NCBI GenBank assembly: GCA_029204225.1
Contig: CM055102.1
Location: 29,411,632 to 29,475,631, forward strand
Direction of reading: 5' to 3'
From: Diphasiastrum complanatum
Taxonomy: Eukaryota > Streptophyta > Lycopodiopsida > Lycopodiales > Lycopodiaceae
Length of the DNA: 64,000 nucleotides
Shown here: in pieces, positions 2,127-47,975 of the stretch
Layout: the number at the start of each line of letters is the position of its first letter
Position numbering within the stretch: the stretch's first letter is position 1
Notes under the pieces: model-generated
What the model saw: only the letters and a program-made list of their open reading frames with translations
What the model was told of the DNA's origin: nothing
The model's database searches: none
Position numbers and translations under genes: made by a program

Positions 2127-2296
2127 AGCTTCTTGTTCCAATTCTTGTCCTTCAGGCACTTTCAAGAGTAACCTGCACACACCTTCAAAGTAAGGTCAGT
2201 CCTGAAGCCCAAAAGGCTTCTTATTCTTGTTCTGGTTCTTCAGGTACTTTCGTGAGTACCTGCACATACCTTCAAAGAAAGATCAGTCCTTAAGCC
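2127..2296. repeat. Tandem repeat, about 88 bp, interrupted by the retroelement
   Basis: A unit running from GGCTTCTT through CTTCAGG, ACTTTC, CCTGCACA and CCTTCAAAG to CAGTCCTGAAGCC occurs at 2127 and 2215. The start of a further copy (GAAGGCTTCTTAGTTCT) lies at 8169, on the far side of the compound element. The repeat therefore acts as an empty-site reference for the insertion. Confidence 0.75.
2292..2296. repeat. 5-bp target site duplication, left copy
   Basis: AAGCC directly precedes the first TGTTGG terminus. The same five bases follow the last TAACA terminus at 8162-8166. Five bases is the usual duplication length for copia LTR elements. Confidence 0.85.
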
Positions 2297-2338
2297 TGTT
2301 GGAATATCAATCCACACTCTAGAGAGAACTATCAAACA

Positions 2339-2398
2339 GGGCGGATAGCTCAGTGGTAGAGCATCAAATCTGTATGGGTTCGAATCCTAGTCTGTCCA
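2339..2398 (+). other. tRNA-like module in LTR unit 1 (deleted anticodon arm)
   Basis: The A-box (TAGCTCAGTGGTAGAGC) and B-box (GGTTCGAATCC) are intact. About 13 nt of the anticodon and variable region are missing compared with the other copies, so it can no longer form a full cloverleaf. Confidence 0.8.
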
Positions 2399-2427
2399 TC
2401 CATATTATGATTTATGGATTTCTAACA

Positions 2428-2440
2428 TGGTATCAGAGCC
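2428..2440 (+). promoter_or_regulatory. Primer-binding site of LTR unit 1
   Basis: TGGTATCAGAGCC begins directly after the LTR end TAACA. It matches the reverse-transcription primer site of plant copia and TRIM elements, which is complementary to initiator-Met tRNA. Confidence 0.85.
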
Positions 2441-2588
2441 AAGTTAGACCTAACAGGTCATGGTGTCAAAGCCATGGTTAGGTGGCCCAAGTTGTGGGGC
2501 AGAGGTGACAGCTAGGACCCCAACCAAGTGTGGCTTGAGGGGGGTTGTTGGAATATCAATCCACACTCTAGGAGAGAACTATGAAACA

Positions 2589-2661
2589 GGGCGGATAGCT
2601 CAGTGGTAGAGCATCCCATCCAGTATGAGGGAGGTCTTGGGTTCGAATCCTAGTCTGTCCA
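2589..2661 (+). other. tRNA-like module in LTR unit 2
   Basis: This is a 73-nt cloverleaf-capable sequence. Its 5' GGGCGGA pairs over seven positions with 3' TCTGTCC, using two G-T wobbles. The D arm is GCTC/GAGC. The T arm has the canonical TTCGAAT loop. The anticodon stem carries one mismatch, and loop position 33 is C rather than T, so it is not an ordinary decoding tRNA. Confidence 0.85.
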
Positions 2662-2849
2662 TCCATATTATGATTTATGGATTTCTAACATGGCATCAGA
2701 GCCAAGTTAGACCTAACAGTTCATGGTGTCAAAAGCCATGGTTAGGTGGCCCAAGTTGTGGGGCAAGTGACAACTAGGACCCCAACCAAGTGTGGCTTGA
2801 GGGGGGGTGTTGGAATATCAATCCACACTCTAGAAAGAACTATCAAACA

Positions 2850-2922
2850 GGGCGGATAGCTCAGTGGTAGAGCATCTCATCCGGTATGAGGGAGGTCATG
2901 GGTTCGAATCCTAGTCTGTCCA
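2850..2922 (+). other. tRNA-like module in LTR unit 3
   Basis: This 73-nt copy has a fully pairing anticodon stem, TCTCA/TGAGG, around the loop TCCGGTA. The Pol III A and B boxes are intact. The formal anticodon would be CGG, but position 33 is C. The adjoining LTR is followed directly by the copia primer site and leader. Confidence 0.85.
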
Positions 2923-2951
2923 TCCATATTATGATTTATGGATTTCTAACA

Positions 2952-2961
2952 TGGTATCAGA
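2952..2961 (+). promoter_or_regulatory. Copia primer-binding site
   Basis: TGGTATCAGA follows the last LTR unit of block X. It then diverges from the spacer sequence (TCTGCAG instead of GCCAAGT) and leads into the copia leader. Confidence 0.8.
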
Positions 2962-3265
2962 TCTGCAGCAAGCTCGTTTGTTGGCGCCCTACCAGAAGAG
3001 GAGCTTCTCTGCTTTTTGTTGTGAAATTTCAGCATCTTGCTGATCTTTTCAAGTGGAGTTTGGATCAGCTTTTTTGTCTCTTTTCAGGGTGGAGGAGGGC
3101 GGCCATCAGAGATCTTGGATCAGCAATTTTTGGCACCCAAAAATCAGAGAAAGACATCTTGTGCTCCTATTTTCAGCTCTTTGTTTGCTACAAATGTTTG
3201 AGTAGATTTGGTTGTAAAAAGGCTCTCTTTCCTATCTACTACAAGCTGAAATTTTGTTGGAGGTA

Positions 3266-4330
3266 ATGGCTAAAGAATCAAAAGCTATCGGTTCTTTGTT
3301 TAGTGAAGATCGATTGGATGGCACAAACTACTCCCTGTGGAGTTACATGATGAAGAATCTTCTCATAGCGAAAGGGCTGTGGGATTTGGTCATCGCACAT
3401 GGCAGGGCCAATTAGGAGTTAAACCCGACTATTATAGGACTCATTTCTTGGAGATGGATGACGTGGGGACCCCTATTCTACCACGCTATTTAGATTCTGG
3501 ATTATCAACTACTTGTTTACGCTTTTCATTATATGTCAGCCTTGAAGGTACTTGTCTTTCCCTTGATGTCTTTGGCACCTCCTACACCTCGTGGATCATC
3601 ATCATCAACATTATCTTCTACATCTTCGGAAGAACAAAAGAAGTGGGATAGAAGGGATGCACAAGCACATTCTATGGTTGCTCTTGTTGTGAAAAGATCT
3701 ATCTTACCTCATATTAGGTCTTGTAAGACATCTAAAAGTGTGTGGGATACACTTTATACTATGTATAGAGTCAAAAATCTAGCAAGAGTGGTGTATCTTA
3801 GAAATCAGCTTTCTTTGTTGAAGATGCAAGAAAGGGATCAAGTGACCAATCACTTGACGAAGATCAAGGATCTTCGTGAGGAGCTTCTCAATATTGATGA
3901 GATAATTGAGGATGCTCAATTTGTTTCCATTACTCTCAACCCATTACCTTCATCTTATCTTCCATTTGTTTCATCTTTGAGTATCCCTCTTAGGGGACAA
4001 CAACTCTCCTTTGATGAACTTGTTGGGCTGCTTCTTCAAGAGGAGCAAACGAGGCAAAATTTTGCGGGTGACACTCAACAAGATCAAGCTTTCTTCACGA
4101 AAGGCAAGGGCAAAGGCAAGTCAAAAGGAAAGGGGAAGCCTCCTTCCAAGGACGAGCAAAAGCCCGTTGGAGGTCAAAATGTCAACACTCAAAAGAAGAA
4201 AGGAAAGTGCCATTATTGCAAGAAGTATGGGCACTCATCAAGGATTGTAAGAAGAAGCTTACGAAAGAGGAGAGTAAAGGAATTGATACTAGTCCTTCAC
4301 TTGCTACTTTGGAGTAAGAGCTTGAAGGTA
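3266..4330 (+). pseudogene. gag: Copia gag (broken)
   Basis: The start MAKESKAIGSLF is followed by LDGTNYSLWSYMM, the typical N-terminal motif of copia Gag. That frame stops after about 50 codons. The main Gag body resumes in another frame at about 3640-4240, with SKSVWDTLYTMYR, a lysine-rich linker and a zinc-knuckle start CHYCKKYGH. A one-base shift inside the knuckle moves the last Cys (KDCKKK) into the next frame. Gag would form the virus-like particle and bind element RNA. This copy cannot make a full protein. Confidence 0.85.
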
Positions 4331-4362
4331 GTGGTGATCTCTTCAACCAAGACTATGCTTTT

Positions 4363-6844
4363 GTGTCTAATACTGCTTCTACTAGTACTTCTACATCTAT
4401 GAGGAATTCAGGTTCTGTTTTGCAAGTTGCTGATTTTCAGCCCATTGAATGGGTGATTGATAGTGGTGCTACTCGTCATATGACTTCTCGCAAAGAAGCA
4501 TTCAATAAATTAGTGAAAGTGCAAAATGGAAGTAAGGTACAATGTGCGGATGATGCATCTTATTCTATTCATGGAATTGAAATTGTAGCCATCATTTTGC
4601 CTAATGGTGAAGAAAAGTACATTAAGAATGTGCTTTATGTTCCGAGAATCAAGAAGAATCTTCTTTCGGTTTCAACTATGTTGAAGCAAGGACTAGTTGT
4701 TGAGTTCAAAGAAGATAAGTGTCTTGTCAAGGATCCTAAAAGATCACTCTTGATTATTGTTTCGGGAACGATGCATGTTGGCTTATTCATTATGGATACC
4801 TATGAGCGACGAATTCCCTCTACATGTCTTGTTGCTTCTACATCACAATCATTGGAGTTGGCTGAATTGTGGCACGCAAGGTTTGGGCATCTCAACTTTG
4901 CAAGTTTGAAGAAGCTGAAGACATTTAATATGGTAGAAGACATTCCTACTATTGAGCAGCTGAAAGGGCATGTATGCGAGGGGACGGTGCATACTTGGAA
5001 AGTTTCAAAGGAAACCTTTTCCAATTGATGGAACTATAAGGGTTCTTGATGAATTTGATTTGGTTCACAGTGATGTTTGTGGTCCAATGAGGACCGAATC
5101 CATTGGAAAGTGCATCTATTTTGTGACTTTTATTGATGACTTTTCCTGTTTTACATGGATCTATCCTATGAAGGCTAAATCGGAAGTTTTTCAACATTTC
5201 AAAGATTTTCTAGCAATGGTGGAAAATCAGTTTGGGCATTCTTTGAAGACCCTACGCACCGATCGAGGAGGGCAATACATTAAAAATACGTTCGGTGCAT
5301 TTCTTCGAGAAAAGGGAATTCTACATCAAAGGACAACTCCCTATATGCCTCAACAAAATGGTGTTGCCGAGCGAAAGAATCGCACACTTATGGAGATGGC
5401 CCGTTGCATGCTCAAAGCAAAGCAACCGTTGTCCTACTAAAGCATTGAAAGTATTCAAGTATAAGGCAGATGGTACCATTGAAAGGTACAAGGCAAGGCT
5501 CGTTGCCAAAGGCTATGCTCAGCAAAAGGGGATTGGTTATGAGGAGACTTTTTCTCCTACTGCTCGGATGACTACCATGAGGGTAGTAACCTCTTTGGCT
5601 GCCCATTTTGGTTGGTGTTTGCGGCAACTTGACATAAAGACAACATTCCTCAATGATAATCTCAATGAGGAAGTGTACCTTCAACAACCTGCTGGTTTTT
5701 TGGTTGAAGGCCAAGAAGATAAAGTTTGTCTTCTCAAGAAGACACTTTATGGACTGAAGTAAGCTCCGAGGATGTGGTATCAAAAGATACATGCCTACTT
5801 TTGTGATCGAGGGTGTACTAATAGTCCTAGCGAATCTACTCTTTATGTCAAGCATACTTCAGATTATATCATCATTATTTTGCTTTATGTTGATGATATT
5901 ATTATTACGGGAAGAAATGAGCAGCAGATTGATGCCGTAATACTTGATCTTGGTATGGTTTTTGAAACCTCAGATTTAGGCCTATTGCACTTTTATCTTG
6001 GTCTTGAATTTGTACAAGAAGGGGCTGGAATTTTCATCTCTCAAGAACGCTACATTGGGCAGGTTTTGAAGCGGTTCAAGATGGAAGATTGCAAGCCGGT
6101 TGCTACACCTATGGAGACAGGTCTGAAATTAAGTAGTCAAGGTGATGATGAATCATTTGACACTTCTTTATATTGTCAAGCTATTGGCTGTCTCATTTAC
6201 CTATGTAATTCAAGACCGGACATTTCTTATAGTGTCTCACTCATGAGTCAATTCATGCATGCCCCGATGACATCACATTGGAAAGCGTTGAAGAGGATCT
6301 TTCGATATCTTCAAGGAACAAGAAGTCATGGACTGGTTTTTCCTGCTTGTGATGATGCATGTTTGGTTGGTTTTAGTGACTTGGATTGGGGTGGAGATCA
6401 AGATACTAGACGCTCTAAAGTGGACATTGCTTTTTCTATGGAGATTTTGCAATTTCTTGGTCAAGTAAAAAGCAGCCCACTGTTGCTACTTCTTCTAGTG
6501 AGGCAGAATATAGAGCGATATTTTCAACCACAACGGAGTGTTTATGGCTGAGAAGACTACTTGTTGACATGAAGTTTGGCGAGCCCTCAGCCACTCTTAT
6601 CTTGAGTGATAGTCAAAGTGCTATTGCCATTGCACGGAATCCTGTTTTTCATGCGAGGATGAAGCACATCAAGATCCATTATCACTTTGTTCGGGAGAGA
6701 CTTCATAATGGCGACATTTTACTTGAATATTGTCCTATGGGGGATAATATTGCGGACCTCTTCAGTAAGGCATTGCCTAGAGTCAGATTTGAAGCTTTAT
6801 GCAAAGCTTTAAATTTGATACCACGTGCTGGTTTTGTTACATAG
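4363..6844 (+). pseudogene. pol: Copia pol: protease, integrase, reverse transcriptase, RNase H (broken)
   Basis: In order: protease WVIDSGATRHMTS (about 4447); the GAG-pre-integrase motif ELWHARFGHLN, with a frameshift near 4975; integrase core with HSDVCGPM, RTDRGGQY and NGVAERKN (the D, D, E residues), cut short near 5440. A deletion then fuses it directly to reverse transcriptase, which carries YKARLVAKGYAQ, a stop at LK*APR (about 5760) and the catalytic YVDDIIITG (about 5890). RNase H is split by a frameshift near 6440 and ends after ADLFSKALPRVRFE at 6844. It is dead, but the domain order protease-IN-RT-RH identifies copia. Confidence 0.9.
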
Positions 6845-6863
6845 TGAAGATTTCAGTTTTCTC

Positions 6864-6874
6864 ATTAAGGAGGG
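6864..6874 (+). promoter_or_regulatory. Polypurine tract
   Basis: ATTAAGGAGGG lies just after the pol end and immediately before a TGTTAG terminus. This is where plus-strand synthesis is primed in LTR elements. Confidence 0.75.
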
Positions 6875-7405
<531 letters not shown>

Positions 7406-7496
7406 TGGTATCAGAGCCAAGTTAGACCTAACAGTTCATGGTGTCAAAGCCATGGTTAGGTGGCCCAAGTTGTGGGGCAGGTGACAGCTAGGACCC
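7406..7496 (+). repeat. Partial TRIM spacer
   Basis: It begins with the primer site TGGTATCAGAGCCAAG and matches the other spacers up to GCTAGGACCC. The final 26-27 bases, which hold the G-rich tract and the first two LTR bases, are missing. The next unit therefore starts TTGGAATATC. Confidence 0.8.
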
Positions 7497-7536
7497 TTGG
7501 AATATCAATCCACACTCTAGAGAGAACTATCAAACA

Positions 7537-7609
7537 AGGCGGATAGCTCAATGGTAGAGCATCCCATCCGGTATGAGGGAGGTCCTGGGTTCGAATCCTA
7601 GTTTGTCCA
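7537..7609 (+). other. tRNA-like module in LTR unit 4
   Basis: This is a 73-nt copy with point changes: the first base is A, the D loop has AATGG, and the 3' acceptor strand has TTTGTCC. The A and B boxes are still recognisable. Confidence 0.8.
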
Positions 7610-7798
7610 TCCATATTATGATTTATGGATTTCTAACATGGTATCAGAGCCAAGTTAGACCTAACAGGTCATGGTGTCAAATCCATGATTAGGTGGCCCA
7701 AGTTGTGGGGCAGAGGTGACAGCTAGGACCCCAACCAAGTGTGGCTTGAGGGGGGGTGTTGGAATATCAATCCACACTCTAGAGAGAACTATCAAACA

Positions 7799-7871
7799 GG
7801 GTGGATAGCTCAGTGGTAGAGCATCCCATCCGGTATGAGGGAGGTCCTGGGTTCGAATCCTAGTCTGTCCA
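7799..7871 (+). other. tRNA-like module in LTR unit 5
   Basis: This 73-nt copy is nearly identical to unit 2. C4 of the acceptor stem is changed to T (GGGTGGA), and the B box is intact. Confidence 0.8.
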
Positions 7872-8059
7872 TCCATATTATGATTTATGGATTTCTAACA
7901 TGGTATCAGAGCCAAGTTAGACCTAACAGTTCATGGTGTCAAAAGCCATGGTTAGGTGGCCCAAGTTGTGGGGCAGGTGACAACTAGGACCCCAACCAAG
8001 TGTGGCTTGAGGGGGGGTGTTGGAATATCAATGCACACTCTAGAGAGAACTATCAAACA

Positions 8060-8132
8060 GGGCGGATAGCTCAGTGGTAGAGCATCTCATCCGGTATGAG
8101 GGAGGTCCTGGGTTCAAATCCTAGTCTGTCCA
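8060..8132 (+). other. tRNA-like module in LTR unit 6
   Basis: This 73-nt copy shares the TCTCAT anticodon-stem variant with unit 3. The B box has one change (GGTTCAAATCC). Confidence 0.8.
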
Positions 8133-8161
8133 TCCATATTATGATTTATGGATCTCTAACA

Positions 8162-8166
8162 AAGCC
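8162..8166. repeat. 5-bp target site duplication, right copy
   Basis: AAGCC directly follows the outer TAACA terminus and matches 2292-2296. Confidence 0.85.
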
Positions 8167-8526
8167 TAGAAGGCTTCTTAGTTCTACAAGTATCAATGCC
8201 TTGTTACTCAAATCATTGAAGCAATAAATTCATACAATATCCAAAAAAAATAATGGTCATTGGTAGTTTTATGTCATTAAAGTCTATATGGAGTTTGAAG
8301 CTGGAAAGTCTTTATTACTTTGGGGCAATTTGTCTCTACAAATTACACCATCATTTGCAACAAATGGCTCAAGAGAAGAAGAACGCTCTACCATATCAAC
8401 ATTCCAATGCAAATTTGTACTTGTAGAAAGACAATGATCAAACTTTGCATTCCTTTGCTCTTCTACCTTCAAAGAGGATGAAGTAGAGAGGAGAAAGCAT
8501 GATGATGAATCCTTTATTCGGTATAT

Positions 8527-8735
8527 CTATAAAAGTGTTTCCCAAGCACTTTTAGAGGTCTTGCAAAATCTCAAATGATATAAGATAGATCTTGTTACCG
8601 ATAAAATCTTGATCATCACGTCGATGCCAAACCTCAGCTTGCAATTCCATGAAGAATAGTTGGTGCCATCCAACATATCTTTGCCCGAACAAGTACGAAT
8701 TGCTCCCAAATCTCTTGCCATAAGAACTAGCCAAG
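8527..8735 (-). pseudogene. gag: Copia gag fragment
   Basis: MARDLGAIRTCSGKDMLDGT is followed by NYSSWNCKL, then an internal deletion to SILYHLRFCKTSKSAWETLL. Both pieces align with the Gag of the copia at 3266, with the intervening residues missing. It is too short to function. Confidence 0.75.
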
Positions 8736-9586
8736 AAGATAAATTTTTTCAAACCCTAAATGTGCCCTAAAAGACACAAAAACCAGCAAGTATCAAATTT
8801 GAAAAATCAGCATCGGAATGTGTCAAAACCACACATTAGATGGATGCAGGAACTCGCCCTCCTACAGGCCTTGTGTGCTGAAAATTTCAGCCTGAAATTG
8901 CATTACAAACTCAAAAAACCAGCAAGCAAAGAATTAGGTTAGCCTCCAACAAAGCTTTTTCCGGAACCCTTCTGTCCTGCCAAAAAGTGTGAACAACACA
9001 CACACGGATAGGGCTGTTGCAAACACCCTACAAATGGTAATATGCTATCCAATTTTCAGCCTCGGAATGTGATCGGATCATCACAAAAAATTAGCGCCTT
9101 CTTCCACATCTGGAAACAAGCAAAAAGAAGCGGATTTTTACTTTGTAAAATCAGCAAGGGTGCTGATTTTTCAGCCAAATCAGAAGATAAAAATTGCTTG
9201 TAGATGGGCGGCCTCCTGCAAAGGAGCAAATCTGAAAAATAGGGCAGCAGCGGACCAACAGACGTAGGATAAACCTACACGGATGTGGGCAACCTAAAAG
9301 CAGCCCCCAAGAAGATAATTAATGGTGCCTTCCTGCAACCTGAAAAATCAGCAAACAACCAACTGATTTTTGGTCGCCCAAAATCCTATTATCTTCTTTG
9401 ATGTGTGGCGCCCTCTTGCAAAATGGAAAAGAGTCAAAATTGAACGGATCTTCACTCCAAAAAATCAGCGAAGGTGCTGAATTTTTGTGATCCCTAAGTG
9501 AAGACGATTGCTTTTGGTAGGGCGCCCTAAATCAAGCATAGAAGATCCATGGCTCTGATACCATGTTAGAAATCATAATATATGGA

Positions 9587-9666
9587 TGGACAGACTAGGA
9601 TTCAAACCCAGGACCTCCCTCATACCGAAATCCGAATGGGATGCTCTACCACTGAGCTATCCGCCC
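9587..9666 (-). other. tRNA-like module with an expanded anticodon arm
   Basis: It has the same GGGCGGA acceptor start, A box and discriminator region as the plus-strand copies. It carries a 7-nt duplication in the anticodon arm (80 nt in total) and a B box with one change (GGTTTGAATCC). The LTR around it is 9564-9708. Confidence 0.8.
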
Positions 9667-9715
9667 TGTTTGATAGTTCTCTCCAGAGTGTGGATTGATA
9701 TTCCAACGTGTGTAA

Positions 9716-26224: not shown

Positions 26225-27650
26225 TGTTGGAGGGTTTGTGGATATCGAGGCAACCCTAACCCTAGTTAATAAGTGAGAGGGATTTGGCACCCTGCGTGTG
26301 TAAGTCCCCAACCCAATGATTACATAGTTATTTGATAATTAGAAAGTCAATAAAAGGACAGGCCTTTTTGCGGGACCTTTAATGTCGCAGGTCCTAAATG
26401 TCAAGTTAGTGAATAAAGTTGGGACTCCTACCAAAATTGGTTCAAATTTCAAATTCAAATTGGTTCCCTCCAATTACTGAATGGGTTCCCACTCTTTTTT
26501 AAGTTTGAATAGTTAGGGAGGTAGAAATGAGCCAATAAGATTTTGAGGCCAAGGCCCTCCTCTCCACTATAAATAGGGGCAAACTCGAGTTGCTCCTCAT
26601 GTTTAGATCTTCATTTCAATACAAGCAAATTAGTTCTCATAGAAGGTCAAAGTGACTATTCATCTAGAAATGGGTAAATTTTGTGAAGAATTTAACACCT
26701 TTTTACAAATTTTTTAGTTTCTAGAAAGAAACTTCAGCGCCAAAGTTTGTGTCAGTTTGACTTATTATTTTGGTTCATCAGTGAGTTCGACGAACGATAA
26801 GCAGAGACCACGTGTCATATTGTCCAATTTTTGTCAAAAAAGTCTCTTTTTTGCAAAAATGGCAGTATTACATTTGTAACCTTTGCTGAAACTTTTGAGG
26901 ATTCTATTTATAATAAGTTATCATTTTTGAGTTTGGTGAACAATAATTTTGACAAAATCTAGAAAAATCTCTATTTTTACCCTTGACAAACTACAAAAAC
27001 CATATTTTTGGGCAATAAAGGACCTTCGCCAGTTCTACCCTAGCCTTATCTGAGTCAGATATACTATCTGAGAGTTCGGCAAACCAAAATTTGTCAAAAA
27101 AATAGCTTGATCAAAGATTTTTTTTTACCCAAAATAGCATTGAAGAACCTTCGTCGAGTCAACCTTTGCCAAGAAAACACTCGCCAGTACTATTTTTAGG
27201 TTCTAATTTTCCAGATCAAGCTACTGTCAAATTTTTGAATAATTCTGTTACAATTATATTCTGATTCTAAGAATTCATCATTCTTAGAAGTGTCTATCGT
27301 TTGATCATAGATCTTTTTCCAAAAATCAGAAATCTAATTATTGTCAAGTGAAAGAAATTTTGCAGATTTGAATTGAGATAAATTCTGATTGAAAATCTAG
27401 ATCCAATCTCATACACACCTACACCTGACGCCTGAAGAGATTCATCTCTGCTTGAGAGAGTGGCCTTGAGTTAGGTGCGGGTTGAGCTAACCAAGCGAGT
27501 TCCACCCAAATTTTGGTAGGGACCTTCTTCACAATATTCTAAGACCTCAGAGAAGTCTACGAGAGTTCAGAAGGTGATTAGACTGCCTTGCAAAGGTTCT
27601 GCGAGGGTTCAGACAGTTTGCGAGGGTTCAATCCTCGCAGGGAGTGAATG
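26225..27650 (+). repeat. Gypsy-type LTR
   Basis: It starts TGTTGGAGGGTTTGTGGAT. For its first 430 bp or so it matches the 3' LTR at 47589, including CACCCTGCGTGTGTAAGTCC and CTTCATTTCAATA. A plausible core promoter CTATAAATAGGGG lies at about 26570. The right boundary is uncertain: sequence up to about 27650 has no other explanation, but the match to the sister LTR ends near 26650. Confidence 0.65.
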
Positions 27651-28367: not shown

Positions 28368-29906
28368 TCACTGCGGTGGCCAGTACTTGTGCAACCAGCT
28401 ACCATTGATGGGTGTGTCGAACGGTGTCCCATCTAGCGTCTCTAGATTCACGGCTCCGTGATTAAGAATTTCTTTCATCCGATAAGGACCTTTGCCTGTA
28501 AATTTTAATTTTTCTTTGATCACCTTGGTTTTGTACATCAGGACTAGATCTTCGGAACAAAGATCCTTCTTTTGTAACCTGCAATCGTGCCATGCTTTGC
28601 GTCTTTTCTTTTCAGCTGCCAGTGCATGTGCAACTAGTAAGCATGTTTCACAGACCTTATGCAGAGCTTCATGGCGTAATTGTAGAGATCTGGATTCATC
28701 AAGGCGTTGCGTTGTGGCAATCCTTAATGAAGGGACTAAAAACTCTACTAGCATTACATCATCCTGACCATATACCAATGAGAAGGGTGTTTGATCAATG
28801 TTCCCCTTATATGCTGCCCTAAATGCCCACAGAGCAGCATGCAACTTGTGTTCCCAATCCAATCTACTAGCTTCGACTGTTTTTGTGAGCACGCTACACA
28901 TGATCTTATTGGATGATTCTGCTTGCCCATTACCGTGAGGATAATAAGGCATACTAGTTCTATGGATCACGAAGAATTCCTCCAACATGACCTTGATGGT
29001 CTCATTGATGAAATGACTTCCACGGTCGCTGACTATCTCCATCGGGCATCCAAAGCGCACAATGATATTTTCATAGAGGGACTTGGCAGTGGTCCTAGCA
29101 TTAGCTACTCTTACTGCCTTGGCTTCGACCCACTTGGTGAGATAGTCGTTGGCCACGATTATGTATCGAGCCTGGGTACTTCTTGCTACAGGGTGAATCA
29201 GACCAATGTAGTCCAATCCCCACTTTTTGAGTGGTGCTTGGGCTAAGACCGGGTGCAGTAGGTCATAATTCAATCTTGTTGGTCTTCTTTCCCTTTGGCA
29301 CACATCGCACTTCCTCAGGTATTCCTCTGTATCCTTATAAATCATTGGCCACCAACATCCTGATTGCAGGATCTTGCAAATTGTAATGTCGGATGCAAAA
29401 TGGCCTCCACCCATGCCTTCATGTGAAAGCGAAATGATCTGGGTGGCCTCATGAGGAAGAATACACCACCGAAGAATCCCATCTGGTCCTCTTTGGTACA
29501 ATTGGCCGACAATCAGCTGATAAGGTCTAGCTTTCAAGATCAATTTTTGCTGATCCGCCTTTGGTAGTGATTTGTCTGGTTGGCCCCGCATTAGATATTC
29601 AACTATGTCGGCAACCCACTCTGGTACTGTGTCTATGTAAAATAAGACAGCATCGACCAGCTCATCGTCGAGTTGGAGTGCAACCTCTTTCTCCTTGATC
29701 CACGTAACATGATCTGCCATGTAGTGTTGTTTTTTCTTGCGAACTACTATCCGAAAATCAAACTCTGACAACAGAAGTAGCCATCTAGTGATTTTCCCTG
29801 TGTTGCAGGTTTTGTTAACGCGATAGAGCAAGGGTTGATGGTCCGTATAAAAATCAAAGTGTGTGGCCATCAGGTAGTGCCAAAACTTCTTAACTGCATA
29901 TATCAT
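28368..29906 (-). pseudogene. Gypsy RNase H end and integrase, long open frame
   Basis: A 512-codon open frame begins inside RNase H (HFDFYTDHQPLLYRVNK). It continues with the integrase zinc-binding segment (GHFASDITICKILQSGCWWP, CDVCQRERRP) and the core with GLDYIGLIHP, IVSDRGSHF and PHGNGQAESSN, giving D, D and E in place. A C-terminal domain ends KYWPPQ ten or so bases before the polypurine tract. The integrase part looks undamaged, but the upstream RNase H and RT are interrupted, so the polyprotein as a whole is broken. Confidence 0.85.
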
Positions 29907-30179
29907 TGCCAGTGCTTCTCACTCTGTGGTTGAATAATCCATTTCTGTATCACTGAGCTGTCAGCTTGCAAATCAGATCGAAAAATCCTTTTTGTGTTCT
30001 CCCGGCTGGGTTAAGACTGCTCCAACTGCATACTTCGATGCATCCGTATGCACATGAAACTCAATGGACCAGTTGGGTGGACGTAGGATTGGTGATGAAA
30101 CCAATGTATCTTTAAGTTTTTGGAAAGCATTTAGGGCTCCCTCGTTCCAATGTGGATCCGTTGTGAGTTTGTAACTTGG

Positions 30180-30998
30180 TCATGCTAACTCTGCAAAATC
30201 TAAAATGAAAATCCTGTAATAGTTAGCATGACCCATAAAAATGTAGACCTCGTGGATCGTTCCTGGTGGTGGTAGATCAACAATGATCTTGATTTTTGAT
30301 AGGTCTATGGCGATCCCATGTCCAGATACTATATGGCCGAGAATCAAGCCATGTGTAACCCAAAATTGACATTTTTCTGGATTCAGGGAGATCTGGAATT
30401 TGTAGCATTTTTGTAGCACCTTCTCCAAATTGGATAAGTGTTCTGAGTCTGGTCCAAGCACGCACAGATCGTCCAAGAAAATTTCCAGAAATTTCTGCAA
30501 ATTCTCTTTGAATGTCGCCTGCATGACTCACTGGAAAGTGCTTGGGGCATTGCAAAGTCCGAATGGCATCACCTTATAGGCATAGGTTCTCCATTCCGTG
30601 GCAAATGTTGTCTTATGTTGGTCTTGGGGTGCTATCTTCACCTGGTTGTAACCGCTAAAGCCGTCTAAAAAACTGTAGGCTTCGGTTCCAGCTAGTCTAT
30701 CAAGGACACTTTCCGTAAAGTGTAAAGAAAAATGATCTTTTTTTGTGACTGTGTTTAGCGCCTTCATATTCACACAGATTTGCATTTTGCCATTCTTCTT
30801 GGGTACTATAGCTTTCGGCAATACCCATTCAGTGTGCTCGATTTCATAAATGAAATCTGCATCTAACAGCTTCTGCAATTCTTGCTTGATCAGCTCCGTG
30901 TAGTTTGGGTTGCAACAGTAGTATCGACTAACCTTGGGGACTGCTCCATCCACCAAGGGTATGGTGTGTTGGACTACTGTTGGTGCAATGCCCTTCAA
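30180..30998 (-). pseudogene. Gypsy reverse transcriptase
   Basis: Fingers and palm include ELQKLLDADFIYEIEHTEWV, IVPKKNGKMQICVNMKALN, YSFLDGFSGYNQVKIAP and MPFGLCNAPSTFQ. A stop follows near 30528, then the frame resumes with FLEIFLDDLCVLGPDSEHL. The catalytic box is FLDD, an accepted variant of the usual YxDD. NPEKCQFWVTHGLILGHIVS follows. At least one stop separates the two halves. Confidence 0.85.
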
Positions 30999-31299
30999 AT
31001 CACTGTAAAGCGAAACAATCCTTGTACTCCACCAACAATGATCGTAGCCTTTTGAATTGTGTGGGCGTTAACTGCTCTCCCACATGCACTATCTTTTCTT
31101 CTTCACCTGGCTCGGCAAGGTTCATTGGTTGTGTTTGCGCAGGTCCTTCAAAGACTGGTTACGTTGGTGCCTGACTTTGATTAGGTTCTCACTGGGCTTG
31201 CGACATCATAATTACCACATCGTCCAAGGTATAATTCTTGAAGGTTTCAGGCATCTCATGAACTAGTGCTCATCGATATTCCTCCTTCAACATATTGAT

Positions 31300-32030
31300 C
31301 TTAGCCCGATTGGTCATCTTTTGATTTTCCTTCATCTAAGATGAGAATGTCACTGTATCTGAGTTCATCCTGTTTGACTTCAAGGAATCCAACACCTTCT
31401 TTTTGTCTCTTTTTGTCATATCGGTGGATTTGTCCTTGTTGTCTTTCTTCAAAACTGGTGTGACATTTCCCCGTGGTTACGAATATCAACATCCACTGAA
31501 GCTATAGTTTCTTCGGGTAGATCACTCCATCGGATCACGTGGTTGTAGTGTTGTTTCAACTGGTTCTTCTTGTTTGCAGGTGCCCTTGGTGGATCTATCC
31601 TTGAAACTTTTGCCATAGTAGATTTTTGTGGCGGTTGAGCTGGTACTTTCTTAATTCTGTAACAATCTGGGTCCATGTGCTATAGGACCTGCTCATCAGT
31701 CAGCTCAATCTCCTTATTATGAGTCAGAGCATGTTGCCAAGGAACTAAATCATCGTCCACTGGGTTCTCAATAGGTTCCGCTGACAGCCATGCTATGTTT
31801 ATCATATTCACTCCAAATGTAATTGGTGTATCCATGGTATAACACTTGGGTGAAGATGTGCTAGGTCCAGGATCTGATTCGTATTGACATGCTTGGCTGT
31901 CAATCGTTGCTAATGCATCCATCCATCTCACGACATCCATCTCTAAATCGTAGTGACCACCCTTGGCTGGCCTTGGGCGATATATCATGGACGATCCGTC
32001 ATCAGCCTTGGGTGCAATAGGTTTCACCAC
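31300..32030 (-). pseudogene. Gypsy protease-RT linker
   Basis: An acidic, poorly conserved stretch contains NMINIAWLSAEPIENPVDDD and LTHNKEIELTDEQVL. The same features (NVLNVAWISTEPILDPIEDE, LTDEQIL) occur in the plus-strand element at 45900-46060, so this is a family trait rather than random sequence. No function is recognised. Confidence 0.6.
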
Positions 32031-32050
32031 CCATGTGGTTGGATCGACCT

Positions 32051-32532
32051 TTACAGCCGCTCTCTGTTTTCAAAGGTGAGTTTCCCCGTACCCCAGTTGT
32101 GTACTACTTGTGCAGTCCTCAACCATGGTCTTCCCAGTAAAACACGGTATGCAGTTGGAGATTCAGGTATATCCATTACTACAAAGGTTATGACAAACTG
32201 CATGCCTGCTACTTTTACATGGATATCAGCAACCACACCCTTTGGTTTTACACATGATTGATCCACTAGCTTGATGGCGAATCTTGTTGGCTTCAACCCT
32301 GTAAACCCCACTTTTGATATAAAGTAGTGGAGATCAGATTGACACCTGATCCTCCATCTACTACTGCTACCTCGTCCTCGAATCTCTTGTGTTTGATTGG
32401 TAGGGTGATGTTGTGTTCTTTGCTTTCCCATGTTGTCCCGATGTGGAGGACGTTACTAGTCTCTTCATAGCCCATACAATATATGGGCTCAGGCGCTACT
32501 GGCTCCACGTCCGCTTTGGCCCATTCAGCCAA
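32051..32532 (-). pseudogene. Gypsy aspartic protease
   Basis: The motif VAVVDGGSGVNLISTTLYQ carries DGGSG where retropepsins usually have D-S/T-G. GVVADIHVKVAGMQFVITFV and YRVLLGRPWLRTAQVVHNWG follow. The two parts lie in different frames. The plus-strand sister has DGSSG at the same place, so the variant is family-wide. Confidence 0.75.
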
Positions 32533-32909
32533 AAGGCTTTTAGCTTGTGGCGCAATCCGCAGTAATTCCCCGAGGGGTAAACTAACATGGCTCGCCAGTA
32601 AACTTGTGAGCCTTTCAGTGCGTGGTCCTTGGGCTCCACCATGTGAAAAGGTGGTTCATGATGATGCAACCGATTGTTCTGATCCATGCGCAATGGTGAG
32701 CCCGTTTGTGGTTCCCGTTTGCCATCAGCAGGAGGTTCCATAGGATTATCCCTTTCTTGTTCTTTTTCCTCCGCTTGTGCTCTCTGTACCCAGTGTCGTA
32801 TCTTCTAGTATTGTCTCCTTTCTTCCCTCACATTCAGATATGGCGCTGAAGTTGAGGGTTGGTCATCAGTGATCGATGGTGGTGGTGAGGGAGCCACTTC
32901 CTTCCTCTT

Positions 32910-33611
32910 CTATGCCCGTGTAACGGCTAACACAGGGGCATGGAACTGTTGCCTTTCCAGTGGCATACCCTCTGGGACTATTGTCTGTTGTATTGCAATG
33001 AAGCTCAGTGGGGCACTGGTCCCAGGTCTCAATGGACAATTCTTATAGCAGTGTCCATAACCACATTCTCGACAGAAGGATGTATATTGTCCCTTGTAAG
33101 GACATTCCACAATTCTGTGTCCTTCGCCACATCCGTGGCAGCCGTAATTTCTTCCACCTTCATGCTGAGTTTGGGCTGCATAGGCCACAATATATTCACT
33201 TATGGCAGGATCCATAAATGGTTCATCCGGTCCATACCATTGCTGCTGCTTAGGTTGAGGTGGTACTAGCAATTCTGGTTCTGCTGTTGTCAAGTTTACG
33301 TGGGCCACTTGTTGATTGGCTGGCCCTGGTGGTGCAGCTAAGGCCATACGTTGTTGATGATTCGGTGCGCCGTACCTTGGTGCCGCATCTGGTACCCCTT
33401 GATGATATAGATAAGAAGTCTAATAAGGACTTCTCTTCTGTTGAACAATCCGGGGGCTAAATGGGCAAAATGCCATATTGTGCGATGTTGCGTTGCACAA
33501 ATGACAAAATCTATGTGTCAGTCTCAGATTTTGCTTTAGGACTGGGCACTCGTTTGCTGTATGGTTTTGTCTACACACTAAACACTTAGAATTTGCTTTG
33601 CACAGGAACAC
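32910..33611 (-). pseudogene. gag: Gypsy gag with several zinc knuckles
   Basis: Two segments carry Cys/His clusters: CLVCRQNHTANEC and CHLCNATSHNMAFC (33420-33611), then CHGCGEGHRIVEC with CRECGYGHCYKNC (32910-33347). Four knuckle-like motifs are more than most plant gypsy Gag proteins have. Stops separate the segments, and the N-terminal Gag is missing at the copia boundary. Confidence 0.7.
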
Positions 33612-33912: not shown

Positions 33913-35827
33913 TCAACAAACTTTAAATACAGAAAGTTTTGATCTAAACTTATCAAACTTTTCTCCAGTAAGTGGCTTAGTGAAAATATCAGCTAGTTGT
34001 TCTTCTGTGCTACAATGAACAACATGAATTTCATGACTTAGCAGCCTTTCACGTATGAAGTGATATTGAATCTCAATGTGTTTAGTTCTAGCATGGAACA
34101 CTGGATTCTTTGCTAGCTGAATGCCACTCTGACTGTCGCTATGTAAAGTTGTGGGATTTTTCTGCTTCATGCCAATCTCTTCCAAGATTTGTCTCAACCA
34201 TATAGCTGCTTGTGCAGCACTACCTGCACATTGCCTTATACTCTGCTTCTGTGGTGGAAAGAGCAATTGTACTTTGCTTCTTACTAGACCAGGAAAAGCA
34301 ATTACCACAAAACTGGAATATATATCCTGTGGTGGATCTACAATCATCATAGTCACCTCCCCAGTCCGCATCCACATAGCCACACAACTCAGGTAAACCA
34401 TCTTGCTTCTTGTAAATCAAGCCATACTCTGAAGTGCCTTTCACATAACGCAAAATGCGTTTAGCTGCTTTCCAATGCGTTTCTATAGGTGCTGCCATAA
34501 ACTGACTTACAATGCCAACAACATAGCATATATCTGGTGTAGTTGTGGTAAGGTAAATCAAGCTCCCTACTAACTGTCTATATAGCATAGCATCAAATGA
34601 CTGTGATTCATCAAGCTTAGAAAGCTTTTTACCTGGTTCAATAGGAGTGTTTATTGGTTTGCAATCCTGCAACCTAAACCTGTGTAGTAACTCTTTGACA
34701 TATTTCACTTGTGTTAAACCCACTTCATGTCCTTTTTGCCACACTTCTACTCCAAGGCAGTAATGCATCAGGCTGAGATCCGTCATCTCAAATTGTTCCA
34801 TGAGGTCTTTCTTGATTATGTCTATCATCTCTTGATTATTTCTCGTAATAATCAAGTCATCAACATAAAGAGCAATCAAAGCAACCATACCATCAAAGCA
34901 TAAGACATATAGATTTGGATCAGAATGTGTTCTCACCATCCCCTTTGAATGAAAGTAGGCATCAATCCTGCTATACCACGCACGTGGTGCTTGTTTAAGA
35001 CCATAAAGCGCTTTCTTCAAGCGACATACTTTATTTTCCTGTCCTTCTGTTACAAAGCCTTCAAGTTGATCCATGAACACTTCTTCTTCTAACTCACCAT
35101 TTAGAAAAGCAGATTTCACATCCATCTGATGCAAAGGCCAACCAAAACGTGAAGCTAAAGCAATAAGTAGACGTAGAGTACTCCACTTACACACTGGCGC
35201 AAAGGTCTCCTCATAGTCAATGCCTTTATTTTGTGCGTACCCTTTGATTACCAATCTTGCTTTGTGCTTTGCTATGCTTCCATCTGCATGGTACTTAGTT
35301 CTATATACCCATTTGCAACCAATGGGTTTCTTGCCAACTGGTGGTTCTACTAAGTCCCATGTGCTATGCTTAGCAATTGACTCCATCTCCTCTCCCATGG
35401 CCTTGATCCAAATGTCATCATCCTTCGCTTCACCATAAGTCGAAGGTTCTTTGCTTTGAATAATGCTGGATAACAGAGCATAATTTGCTTCATACCTTTC
35501 AGGTAGTATCTTCTCTCTTGTTGATCTTCGTAGCTCTCCCTGGTTAGATGATCTTGGAAAGTCATCTATATCGCGGCTCTCCATCAATCTCTCAAACCAC
35601 TTAGGGAGCTTTCTGTCAAGTGATCGGCTTCCTGGTGAAAATGTATCCCACCGTACATCCTTCTCCTTGCGTTTGCCACCTGCAATTTCAATCCTTCTTG
35701 CACCAAAAGGTTTGTCCCTACATCTCCAACCTGTTTCTTGAGGTTGAGTAGTAGTATCCTGAGATGTATACTCATGTTCATCACTCGGAAGGTCAATGAA
35801 TGGATCATCATCAGGTGGTATCCTCAC
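33913..35827 (-). pseudogene. Copia reverse transcriptase and RNase H
   Basis: RT motifs include CKWVYRTKYHADGSIAKHKA, DYEETFAPVCKWSTLRLLIA, HQMDVKSAFLNGELEEEVF, LKKALYGLKQAPRAWY and the catalytic YVDDLIIT. RNase H starts with GYVDADWGGDYDDCRSTTGY and reaches STTEAEYKAM. A frameshift near 34220-34260 moves the end (SDSQSGIQLAKNPVFHARTK, EQLADIFTKPLTGEKFDKFR) into another frame. It is otherwise open for 535 codons. Confidence 0.9.
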
Positions 35828-35908
35828 TATGCCATTTTTCCTACTGGATGTGTCTATCTTCTAAGCATCTTCGTCTTCATACATCTTGGATTCATCAAAG
35901 ATAACATC

Positions 35909-37507
35909 TCAGCTTATATGGATTTTGTTTTCGACTGGATCAAAACATCTATAGCCTTTCACGCGATCATCGTATCCTAGGAATATGCACTTGATAGCTT
36001 TTACATCAAGTTTATGTCTTTCTTCCTTAGGAATATGTACAAAGGCCTTACATCCAAAGATTCGCAAGTGGTTCACCTTTGGATTCTTCTTTGTGAATGC
36101 TTCCTCAGGTGTAATTTTTGGTATGGCAATGGTAGGACTTCTATTTTGAAGATAGACTGCCGTGCTACATGCTTCTGACCAAAAATCTTTTGGTAATTTC
36201 ATCTCAGCTAGCATAGATCTAGCACTTTCCACAATCGTACAATTTTTGCGCTCAGCTACACCATTGAGAGCAGGAGTATGAGCTTGCGTAAATTGTCTTT
36301 TAATCTCACATTGATCACAAAGATCATTGAAGTCATTAGACTTATACTCACCTCCACTATCTGATCTTAGGACTTTGATCTTCTTACCTGTCTGATTTTC
36401 GACCAAGTTTTTAAAGTTCTTGAAGTTATCAAAAGCATCTGATTTCTTCTTCAAGAAGTAGATCCACGTCTTACGTGACATATCATCAATAAAGGTCATG
36501 AAATAGAAGGCTTTTCCTAAGGACATGGTCCTCATGGGCCTGCATAAATCTGTGTGGATTAAATCCAGGATGTTCTTTGCTCTTGCAACACCCCCTTTAT
36601 TGAACTTCTCTCGATGCTGCTTCCCATATATACAAGATTCGCACATCGATTTCAAGTGATCTTCTATTGTAGGCAGTCCTGTTACCATCTCCGATTTTCT
36701 CATCAAACTGAGGCTTCCCAAGATCAAGTGACCAAGCCTCCTGTGCCAGAACTCAGTTTGCGAAGGAACAGTTGACACAAGTCCATGTTGCCCCTTGATT
36801 GTGGCATTCAACCTGTACAATTTTGTATTGGGCTCTCTTACTCCATTCGCAATAACTTTGAACTTTTGGTTCGCATCCTTCACAAAGCAACGATCATGGG
36901 CGAATTCTACTTTCAACTTTTGATCAGTAATGACTCCAATAGAAAGTAGATTTTTCTTCAAACCTGGTACGTAAAGTACCTCCCTGATCATCCTGCTTTT
37001 GCCGTCAGGCAGTTGGATTGAAACTGTGCCTATCCCCTTGATCATGCACACCTCACCATTTGCTTGTGAAACAGATGTTCCATTATCCAACGCCTTCAAA
37101 CTACTGAACCAGTTCTTGTTACCTGTCATGTGTCTTGTGGCTCCTGAGTCAATATACCATGCTTGATCATCTTGATTAGATGACAATGCAGATATGAAGA
37201 TGCTAGAGTCTTCAATCTCACCTTCATCGACAAGGTTACCCGCTTGTTTTGGTTTTCCCTTGCCTTGTTCCGCCAGGAATTTGCGACATTCACTCTTCCA
37301 GTGGCCCTTTTTACCACAATGGAAACACTTGCCTTTCTTCTTAGTTTTGCTGGAAGATCCCTCATCCTCCTGAGACTTGGCAAATTGCTGTTTAGTCTTC
37401 TTCTTGCCCTTGACCTTGCCTTGTTTTTGGCGTGTCGCAAGTGCCTGATCATCAGTATTTTGACGTCTAGCTTTCACCATTTCTCGTCGTTGCTCTTCCT
37501 GCATCAA
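35909..37507 (-). pseudogene. Copia gag C-terminus, protease and integrase
   Basis: A 532-codon open frame holds the zinc knuckle CFHCGKKGHWKSEC, protease WYIDSGATRHMTGN and GAG-pre-integrase FWHRRLGHLILGSL. Integrase core residues lie in LIHTDLCRPM, VLRSDSGGEY and NGVAERKN, followed by the C-terminal GYDDRVKGYRCFDP. A stop at about 35908 separates it from the RT frame. The Gag N-terminal part (37891-37694) lies beyond one or two stops. Confidence 0.9.
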
Positions 37508-47588: not shown

Positions 47589-47975
47589 TGTTGGAGGGTT
47601 TGTGGATCCCAAGGCAACCCTAACCCTAGTTAATTAGTGTGAGGGATTCGGCACCCTGCGTGTGTAAGTCCAACCCGATGATCACATAGAGATTTGATTA
47701 ATTAGAAAGTCAATATAAGGACTTTAGGCCTTTTTGTGGGACTTTTAATGTCGCAGGGCCTAAATGTCAAGTCAGTGAATAAAGTTGGATTTTCTTTTAA
47801 TTTGGATGGTTCCCACTCTTTTTTAAATTTGAATATTAGGGAGACAGAAATGGACCAATAGGATTCAGAGGCCAGGGTCCCCTTCTCTACTATCAAAAGG
47901 GACCAACTCGAGTTTCCTACACATGTACATATCTTCATTTCAATAAAGCAGATTGGTTCTCTTGTGAAATGGATT
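47589..47975 (+). repeat. Gypsy 3' LTR, partial
   Basis: TGTTGGAGGGTTTGTGGATC follows the polypurine tract. It matches 26225-26650 and is truncated near 47975. Confidence 0.8.

Follow-up and report, generated by a model that had tools for sequence, protein, structure and literature searches.

TRIMs with tRNA-derived sequence in their LTRs have been described under the name Helenus and grouped with Cassandra as TRIMp3 (Kojima 2024, PMC10886601). In the sections of that article consulted here, Selaginella moellendorffii is the only plant in which Helenus is recorded (Helenus-1_SMo), tandem arrays are reported for one family (LTR-11_DR), and a Pol III promoter is put forward by the author as an expectation only; a meeting report (PMC12859917), in its consulted text, merely cites Helenus. 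For Cassandra, the partner that mobilises the element is described as unknown (PMC7215508, consulted excerpt), and for composite elements of the Triticeae, Sabot and Schulman proposed template switching within a shared particle (PMC1950507, consulted excerpt).

We analysed a window (the whole stretch of DNA under study, 64,000 nucleotides of the Diphasiastrum complanatum genome) in which positions 2297-2951 form an LTR-IR-LTR-IR-LTR array, where IR is an internal region and each LTR contains a tRNA-like sequence. A preliminary description of this DNA had stated that it knew of no described family with a tRNA in that role; the publication of Helenus in 2024 overturns that statement (PMC10886601, consulted sections). 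Like Helenus as presented there, the TRIM in the window is a short, non-coding LTR element with tRNA-like A and B boxes in each LTR, a primer site (PBS) and a PPT; like the plant and fungal members it makes 5-bp target-site duplications (TSDs), seven of 13 being perfect here; and its isotype or anticodon is unlikely to be functional, the mixed identities given by ARAGORN resembling the isotype disagreement noted by Kojima. It is set apart from Helenus-1_SMo by size, with an LTR of 144 bp and an internal region of about 117 bp, as against 120 and 85 bp. The evidence for a mobilising partner also differs: Kojima used the PBS and internal similarity, whereas here it consists of chimeras with one Copia family. 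By size and features, the Diphasiastrum TRIM looks like a new family of the Helenus kind, and we found no account of it in Diphasiastrum in the open-access literature (Repbase was outside the scope of this search).

With Cassandra, the TRIM shares a small-RNA gene sequence with Pol III promoter boxes in the LTR, the TGGTATCAGAGC primer site and tandem LTR-internal-LTR arrays (PMC7215508, consulted excerpt). Unlike Cassandra, it carries tRNA-like instead of 5S rRNA sequence, and an assignment to Cassandra was rejected because Rfam at gathering thresholds gives only tRNA in the window and no 5S rRNA. Its L2I1 and L3I2 layouts are like those of the tandemly arrayed TRIMs of Gao et al. 2016 (PMC4717578), but their main text does not contain the word tRNA (count 0). 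A composite within one 5-bp TSD is likewise known from the Triticeae template-switch elements of Sabot and Schulman 2007 (PMC1950507, consulted excerpt); in contrast to those, the TRIM is fused here with a coding Copia of a different family, and other LTR pairs are more similar than the outer one. What is new is the 5.9-kb composite, together with three kinds of chimera with the same Copia family.

The tandem array and its copies in the genome

The LTRs of the array are 131, 145 and 144 bp long, and all three start with TGTTGG and end with CTAACA. They score 37.2, 46.5 and 43.2 bits against the Rfam tRNA model RF00005, for which the gathering threshold is 29, and each preserves an intact A box (TAGCTCAGTGG) and B box (GGTTCGAATCC). 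Thus the two central observations of the preliminary description, a tRNA-like sequence in LTR-like units and A and B boxes inside them, hold for every unit of the array, and others needed adjustment. Units of about 144 bp running from TGTTGG to TAACA had been described; the termini are as stated throughout, but the first unit (5L1) has only 131 bp. The 73-nt tRNA-like part is that of the second and third units; in 5L1 a deletion of 13 nt in the anticodon/variable region leaves 60 nt, with both boxes kept. A primer site of the TGGTATCAGA type does abut the end of the array LTRs, but it is exact (TGGTATCAGAGC) only after the first; it has one mismatch after the second (TGGCATCAGAGC), and the third is followed by TGGTATCAGATC, which is the start of the internal region of a Copia element (Copia1). 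Whether a C stands at position 33, as reported, varies with the alignment: ARAGORN places the anticodon at 33 or 34 and assigns some units to Thr, others to Pro.

Both internal regions of the array (118 and 117 bp) open with a primer site of the TGGTATCAGAGC type and close with a G-run; the PBS and PPT expected between the LTRs of a Helenus element are therefore present, as TGGTATCAGAGCC at the start and the G-run at the end. Further units lie outside the array: three at 7497-8161, plus a minus-strand one at 9708-9567. The window has seven Rfam tRNA matches in total (37.2-49.9 bits), every one inside a copy of the tRNA-bearing LTR, and ARAGORN makes six tRNA calls among these LTRs, including two of the three units in 2297-2951.

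A search of the 1.74-Gb assembly with a 51-nt pattern comprising the tRNA 3' half and the LTR end, allowing up to three mismatches, found 1,568 places, and the reversed control found 0; copies without the LTR end would escape this pattern. As all seven matches in the window fall in this LTR and the reversed pattern finds nothing, the tRNA matches are not due to chance. We read the first 20 loci on one contig (C1) among 100 places listed, counting close pairs once and omitting the place L015; these loci are exact matches and so lean toward young copies with a whole LTR end. They comprise 14 LTR-IR-LTR elements or arrays, one solo LTR (L077) and five chimeras (L074, L087, L088, L078 and L083). 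The LTR-IR-LTR element is about 404 bp long, with LTRs of 144 bp and an internal region of 116-118 bp; among the 14, L070 and L086 each have one truncated LTR, and L075 is an L3I2 array with a deletion in the middle LTR. Two LTRs in a short, non-coding element, as in Helenus, are thus found in 14 of the 20 loci, the window unit itself lying within a 5.9-kb chimera. The tRNA-derived A/B-box sequence in the LTR, the other Helenus feature, is present in all seven LTRs of the window and in 17 of 19 loci scanned with Rfam, which gave 29 tRNA matches in those 17 and none in L083 or L060.

For the 13 insertions with both LTR ends, seven TSDs are perfect over 5 bp, four agree at four of five positions and two at two of five; among 182 cross pairs used as a control, none is perfect and ten reach at least four of five. 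L078, a chimera without the TRIM 5' end, was set aside from the 13 insertions, yet is included in the cross pairs.

A second sample, based on the primer site, comprised 68 loci (256,768 b) with 76 exact primer sites, mostly around TGGTATCAGAGC on C1. It contained one copy of the TRIM family (L015) and one diverged tRNA-LTR. The latter (L060:330-450) is a tRNA-like LTR of about 120 bp, 81% identical over 64 nt and placed directly before TGGTATCAGAGC; it gave no Rfam match at E 0.1 and no ARAGORN call, and judged from its sequence it probably represents another tRNA-LTR family of the Helenus kind in the same genome. The TGGTATCAGAGC primer site itself occurs 81,101 times in the 1.74 Gb (reversed control, 39), as one primer type common to many elements. 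Two exact DNA patterns searched in viral contigs gave 0 matches.

A composite insertion and chimeras with Copia1

The array at 2297-2951 looks like part of a much larger unit (Table 1). The same five bases, AAGCC, flank 2297 and 8161, and thus the whole 5.9 kb, which encloses a Copia with its own LTR, looks like a single insertion within one TSD. It sits inside another, minus-strand Copia-type element (Copia2).

Table 1. Coordinates of the composite insertion, its flanks and the adjoining minus-strand element in the window
Feature	Position	Strand	Evidence
Left TSD AAGCC	2292..2296	.	sequence
LTR unit 5L1, 13-nt deletion; tRNA-like 2339-2398	2297..2427	+	Rfam, sequence
Internal region IRa: primer site TGGTATCAGAGCC at start, G-run (PPT) at end	2428..2545	+	
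LTR unit 5L2; tRNA-like 2589-2661	2546..2690	+	Rfam, ARAGORN, sequence
Internal region IRb	2691..2807	+	
LTR unit 5L3; tRNA-like 2850-2922	2808..2951	+	Rfam, ARAGORN, sequence
Copia1 internal region joined to 5L3 at or just inside primer site	2951/2952	+	comparison with 20 other Copia1 leaders
Copia1 internal region: leader, gag, Pol_BBD, GAG-pre-integrase, integrase, RT, PPT; several reading frames	2952..6874	+	Pfam
Copia1's own 3' LTR (TGTTAGAAA..), its end joined to TRIM	6875..7405	+	sequence
TRIM internal region IR0, without its PPT-bearing 3' end	7406..7496	+	
LTR unit 3L1, first TG missing; tRNA-like 7537-7609	7497..7638	+	Rfam, ARAGORN, sequence
Internal region IRa', 2-nt insertion common with IRa	7639..7756	+	
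LTR unit 3L2; tRNA-like 7799-7871	7757..7900	+	Rfam, ARAGORN, sequence
Internal region IRb', extra A common with IRb	7901..8017	+	
LTR unit 3L3; tRNA-like 8060-8132	8018..8161	+	Rfam, ARAGORN, sequence
Right TSD AAGCC	8162..8166	.	sequence
Copia2 primer site, leader and gag remnant, directly behind seventh LTR	8167..9566	-	
Seventh tRNA-bearing LTR, first base T to C; tRNA-like 9587-9666	9567..9708	-	Rfam, ARAGORN

The left and right arrays correspond in their internal regions, IRa with IRa' and IRb with IRb', by indels specific to each unit, and a C-to-T change is common to 5L3 and 3L3. Unlike these indels, the LTR identities give no matching left/right pairing: 5L1 and 3L1 (93.8%) are less alike than any other two of the six plus-strand units (15 pairs), 5L2 and 3L2 are 97.2% identical, and 5L3 is closer to 3L2 (97.2%) than to 3L3 (96.5%). 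The outermost LTRs, 5L1 and 3L3, are 93.9% identical over 131 positions and are not the closest pair, although a single clean reverse transcription should make them so. At the 5' junction nine leader bases are missing by comparison with other Copia1 leaders, either through a switch at a shared GA or because the leader was shortened afterwards; at the 3' junction CTA is common to Copia and TRIM. The two junctions fit template switching or later small changes; at the 5' junction, the join may first have been exact at the primer site and the leader may then have lost 9 nt. For the RT reading frame at 5772-6548, the best relative with a named organism is a protein of D. complanatum, a lycophyte of the family Lycopodiaceae, that matches 43% of the query at 94% identity (third among the best 120 of 326).

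Three kinds of Copia1-TRIM chimera were found: that of the window, that of L074, L087 and L088, and that of L078. The three loci of the second kind share one TRIM piece (part of an IR, a whole LTR, an IR and part of an LTR), which lies between the Copia1 positions equivalent to window 4073, immediately past the gag domain, and window 4485, in Pol_BBD; over 1,301 b, L074 and L087 are identical and L088 has one difference. Read further, L087 ends in a Copia1 3' LTR, and its 5' Copia LTR is cut to 32 nt. In L078 the Copia1 integrase (5280) runs into primer site-IR-LTR. Microhomologies at the breakpoints are GGTGACA (7 nt) and TTC (3 nt) in L087, and ACAT (4 nt) in L078.

The TRIM is also joined to other families. 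In L083, 63 bp of the 3' end of the tRNA LTR are joined to the primer site of an L017-type element. At L015:3393-3650 we observed an IR and a tRNA LTR exactly between the LTR end and the primer site of an unrelated element family, of which L013 is an unbroken relative. These two chimeras suggest that the TRIM RNA may meet several elements. Over all TRIM-side ends that could be placed, seven of ten lie within 10 nt of the LTR/primer-site boundary (two in the window, one at the minus-strand LTR, one in L078, two in L015 and one in L083), the other three being two of the L074 type and one in L083; the pattern, in demanding a whole LTR end, favours such near-boundary ends.

Copia2 stands directly behind the seventh tRNA-bearing LTR. 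It seems to have this LTR at its 5' end and the start of a Copia-type LTR at its presumed far end in the left flank (L009:6230; 145 aligned columns only). Elsewhere in the window, two pairs of stretches at 26225-26422 and 47589-47788, 93-94% identical and about 21.4 kb apart, the first beginning with TGTTGGAGGG, are possibly the LTRs of a nested element; minus-strand open reading frames that look by eye to be of Gypsy type (28368-33347) adjoin others that look Copia-like (33913-37507).

Alternative readings and the fold of the tRNA-like part

It is hardly credible that the window holds a plain tRNA-derived SINE, or pseudo-tRNA genes lying by chance beside LTR ends: the matches to the tRNA model are strong, but two LTRs surround an internal region in 14 of 20 loci and seven of 13 copies have perfect 5-bp duplications at the LTR ends (counting only copies with an LTR end), so that the SINE reading was rejected and the preliminary view of the units as more than a one-off tRNA insertion is borne out. 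Nor do we give much weight to the notion that the autonomous Copia at 2952 normally carries the 144-bp LTR as its own, which would make that Copia one driven by a Pol III-type promoter; this is very improbable, even though a tRNA LTR stands at the primer site of both Copia1 (2951/2952) and Copia2 (9567/9566, minus strand). The window copy of Copia1 ends in a 3' LTR of its own (6875-7405), and a Copia2 relative with a nearly identical leader (L011) has its own LTR on both sides. The Copia1 leader occurs at 697 places in the genome (control, 0); the first 20 besides the window all follow the LTR end TTCCTACA and none follows a tRNA LTR; 19 of them match the Copia LTR of the window directly. L099 has four extra bases before the primer site. 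At L097 we observed agreement with the LTRs of the other leaders only in the last bases and a different LTR upstream, perhaps another chimera. A 30-nt pattern across the junction of tRNA LTR and Copia1 leader (up to three mismatches) found a single place in the 1.74 Gb, the window, although it would miss a tRNA LTR before an unshortened leader. The leader sample and the unique junction contradict a shared LTR for Copia1 and indicate recombination instead; the tRNA TRIM and Copia1 are, on this sequence evidence, separate families that recombine. More weight is due to the proposal, unlikely in our judgement yet well short of implausible, that the chimeras postdate integration and come from recombining genomic or circular DNA rather than from reverse transcription, as when a circle with one LTR joins a TRIM array at the primer site. 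The arrangements in the window and in L015 are those expected of a circle joined at the LTR/primer site, and the unit-specific indels common to the left and right internal regions are as from one duplicated trimer; however, the junctions in L087 and L078 have merely 3-7 nt of identity at non-homologous places, a single TSD frames the whole window insertion, and the L074 chimera has at least three nearly unchanged copies.

That the tRNA-like sequence is kept for its fold, through RNase P/Z processing or tRNA mimicry, and not as a promoter, appears improbable. Standard pairs make up 95.1% of the pair cells across the seven copies in the window, against 30-49% with slid partners, but this is expected of any tRNA-derived sequence. 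For covariation we used 35 LTR copies (37 were found, and two duplicate chimera copies were dropped). Neither these copies, over 21 cloverleaf pairs, nor the seven in the window show a compensatory change, a weak test since the copies are young; of the one-sided changes in the 35 copies, 35 keep or make a standard pair and 21 leave none. One of the 21 cloverleaf pairs (C-A) is non-standard in the majority letters. Folded in isolation, the 73-nt sequence of unit 3L2 takes a best structure other than the cloverleaf (z -0.53), and ARAGORN assigns mostly Thr, with some Pro, Ile and Ala. Selection on fold, which the preliminary description had offered beside selection on promoter, finds no support here.

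Of 55 differences between the two LTRs of 11 elements (L069-L085), 48 lie in the tRNA-like half (LTR positions 43-115), which suggests that this part decays faster after insertion. The excess is partly a matter of ascertainment, as one LTR was chosen by an exact match at positions 94-144, and much of it is probably the decay of methylated C. At non-CpG sites the first 42 bp of the LTR also vary less than the tRNA-like part (0.75% against 2.40%, in loci chosen by the same exact match at 94-144), and conservation of the A and B boxes does not clearly exceed that of the sequence around them. Neither array contains a run of four T, the feature used here as a Pol III terminator, an absence within what shuffles give by chance (P = 0.37 and 0.40).

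Proposed mechanism and its meaning

The TRIM anatomy, copy number, 5-bp duplications, tandem arrays, solo LTR and chimeras are direct observations. The reading that joins them, which we consider quite probable, is that of a Helenus-kind TRIM whose tRNA part would act as a Pol III promoter and which would be mobilised by Copia1, the window insertion being a template-switch chimera. The A and B boxes would let Pol III start RNA inside the 5' LTR, and the promoter would be recopied into both LTRs at every round of reverse transcription; such transcription is plausible from the sequence, and the tRNA-like part would then work as a promoter and not as a tRNA. The TRIM RNA would be primed at TGGTATCAGAGCC, which we take to be complementary to the host initiator-Met tRNA. 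The tRNA-like part was rejected as the primer because its 3' end (..CTGTCCA) lacks complementarity to the primer site.

The chimeras point to the Copia1 family as the mobilising partner, whose proteins would copy and integrate the TRIM RNA. With TRIM and Copia1 RNAs in one particle, the reverse transcriptase may switch templates near the TRIM primer site, and one integration of the switched product, leaving the AAGCC duplication, would give the 5.9-kb insertion. Template switching in a shared particle is the best account of the chimeras, with recombination between DNA forms as a less likely alternative. Tentatively, and with somewhat less than even confidence, we propose a broader view: jumps between co-packaged TRIM and Copia1 RNAs near the TRIM primer site would yield array-framed Copia elements and amplified Copia1 copies with a TRIM piece, would hand a Pol III-type promoter to larger retrotransposons, and would leave chimeras that reveal the mobiliser.

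In a genome of this kind, tRNA gene finders will give many false tRNA genes. These results extend tRNA-bearing TRIMs from one plant (Selaginella, according to the consulted sections of Kojima 2024) to a homosporous clubmoss with 1,568 LTR places. The chimeras offer a sequence-based pointer to the mobilising element, a question described as open for Cassandra (PMC7215508, consulted excerpt).
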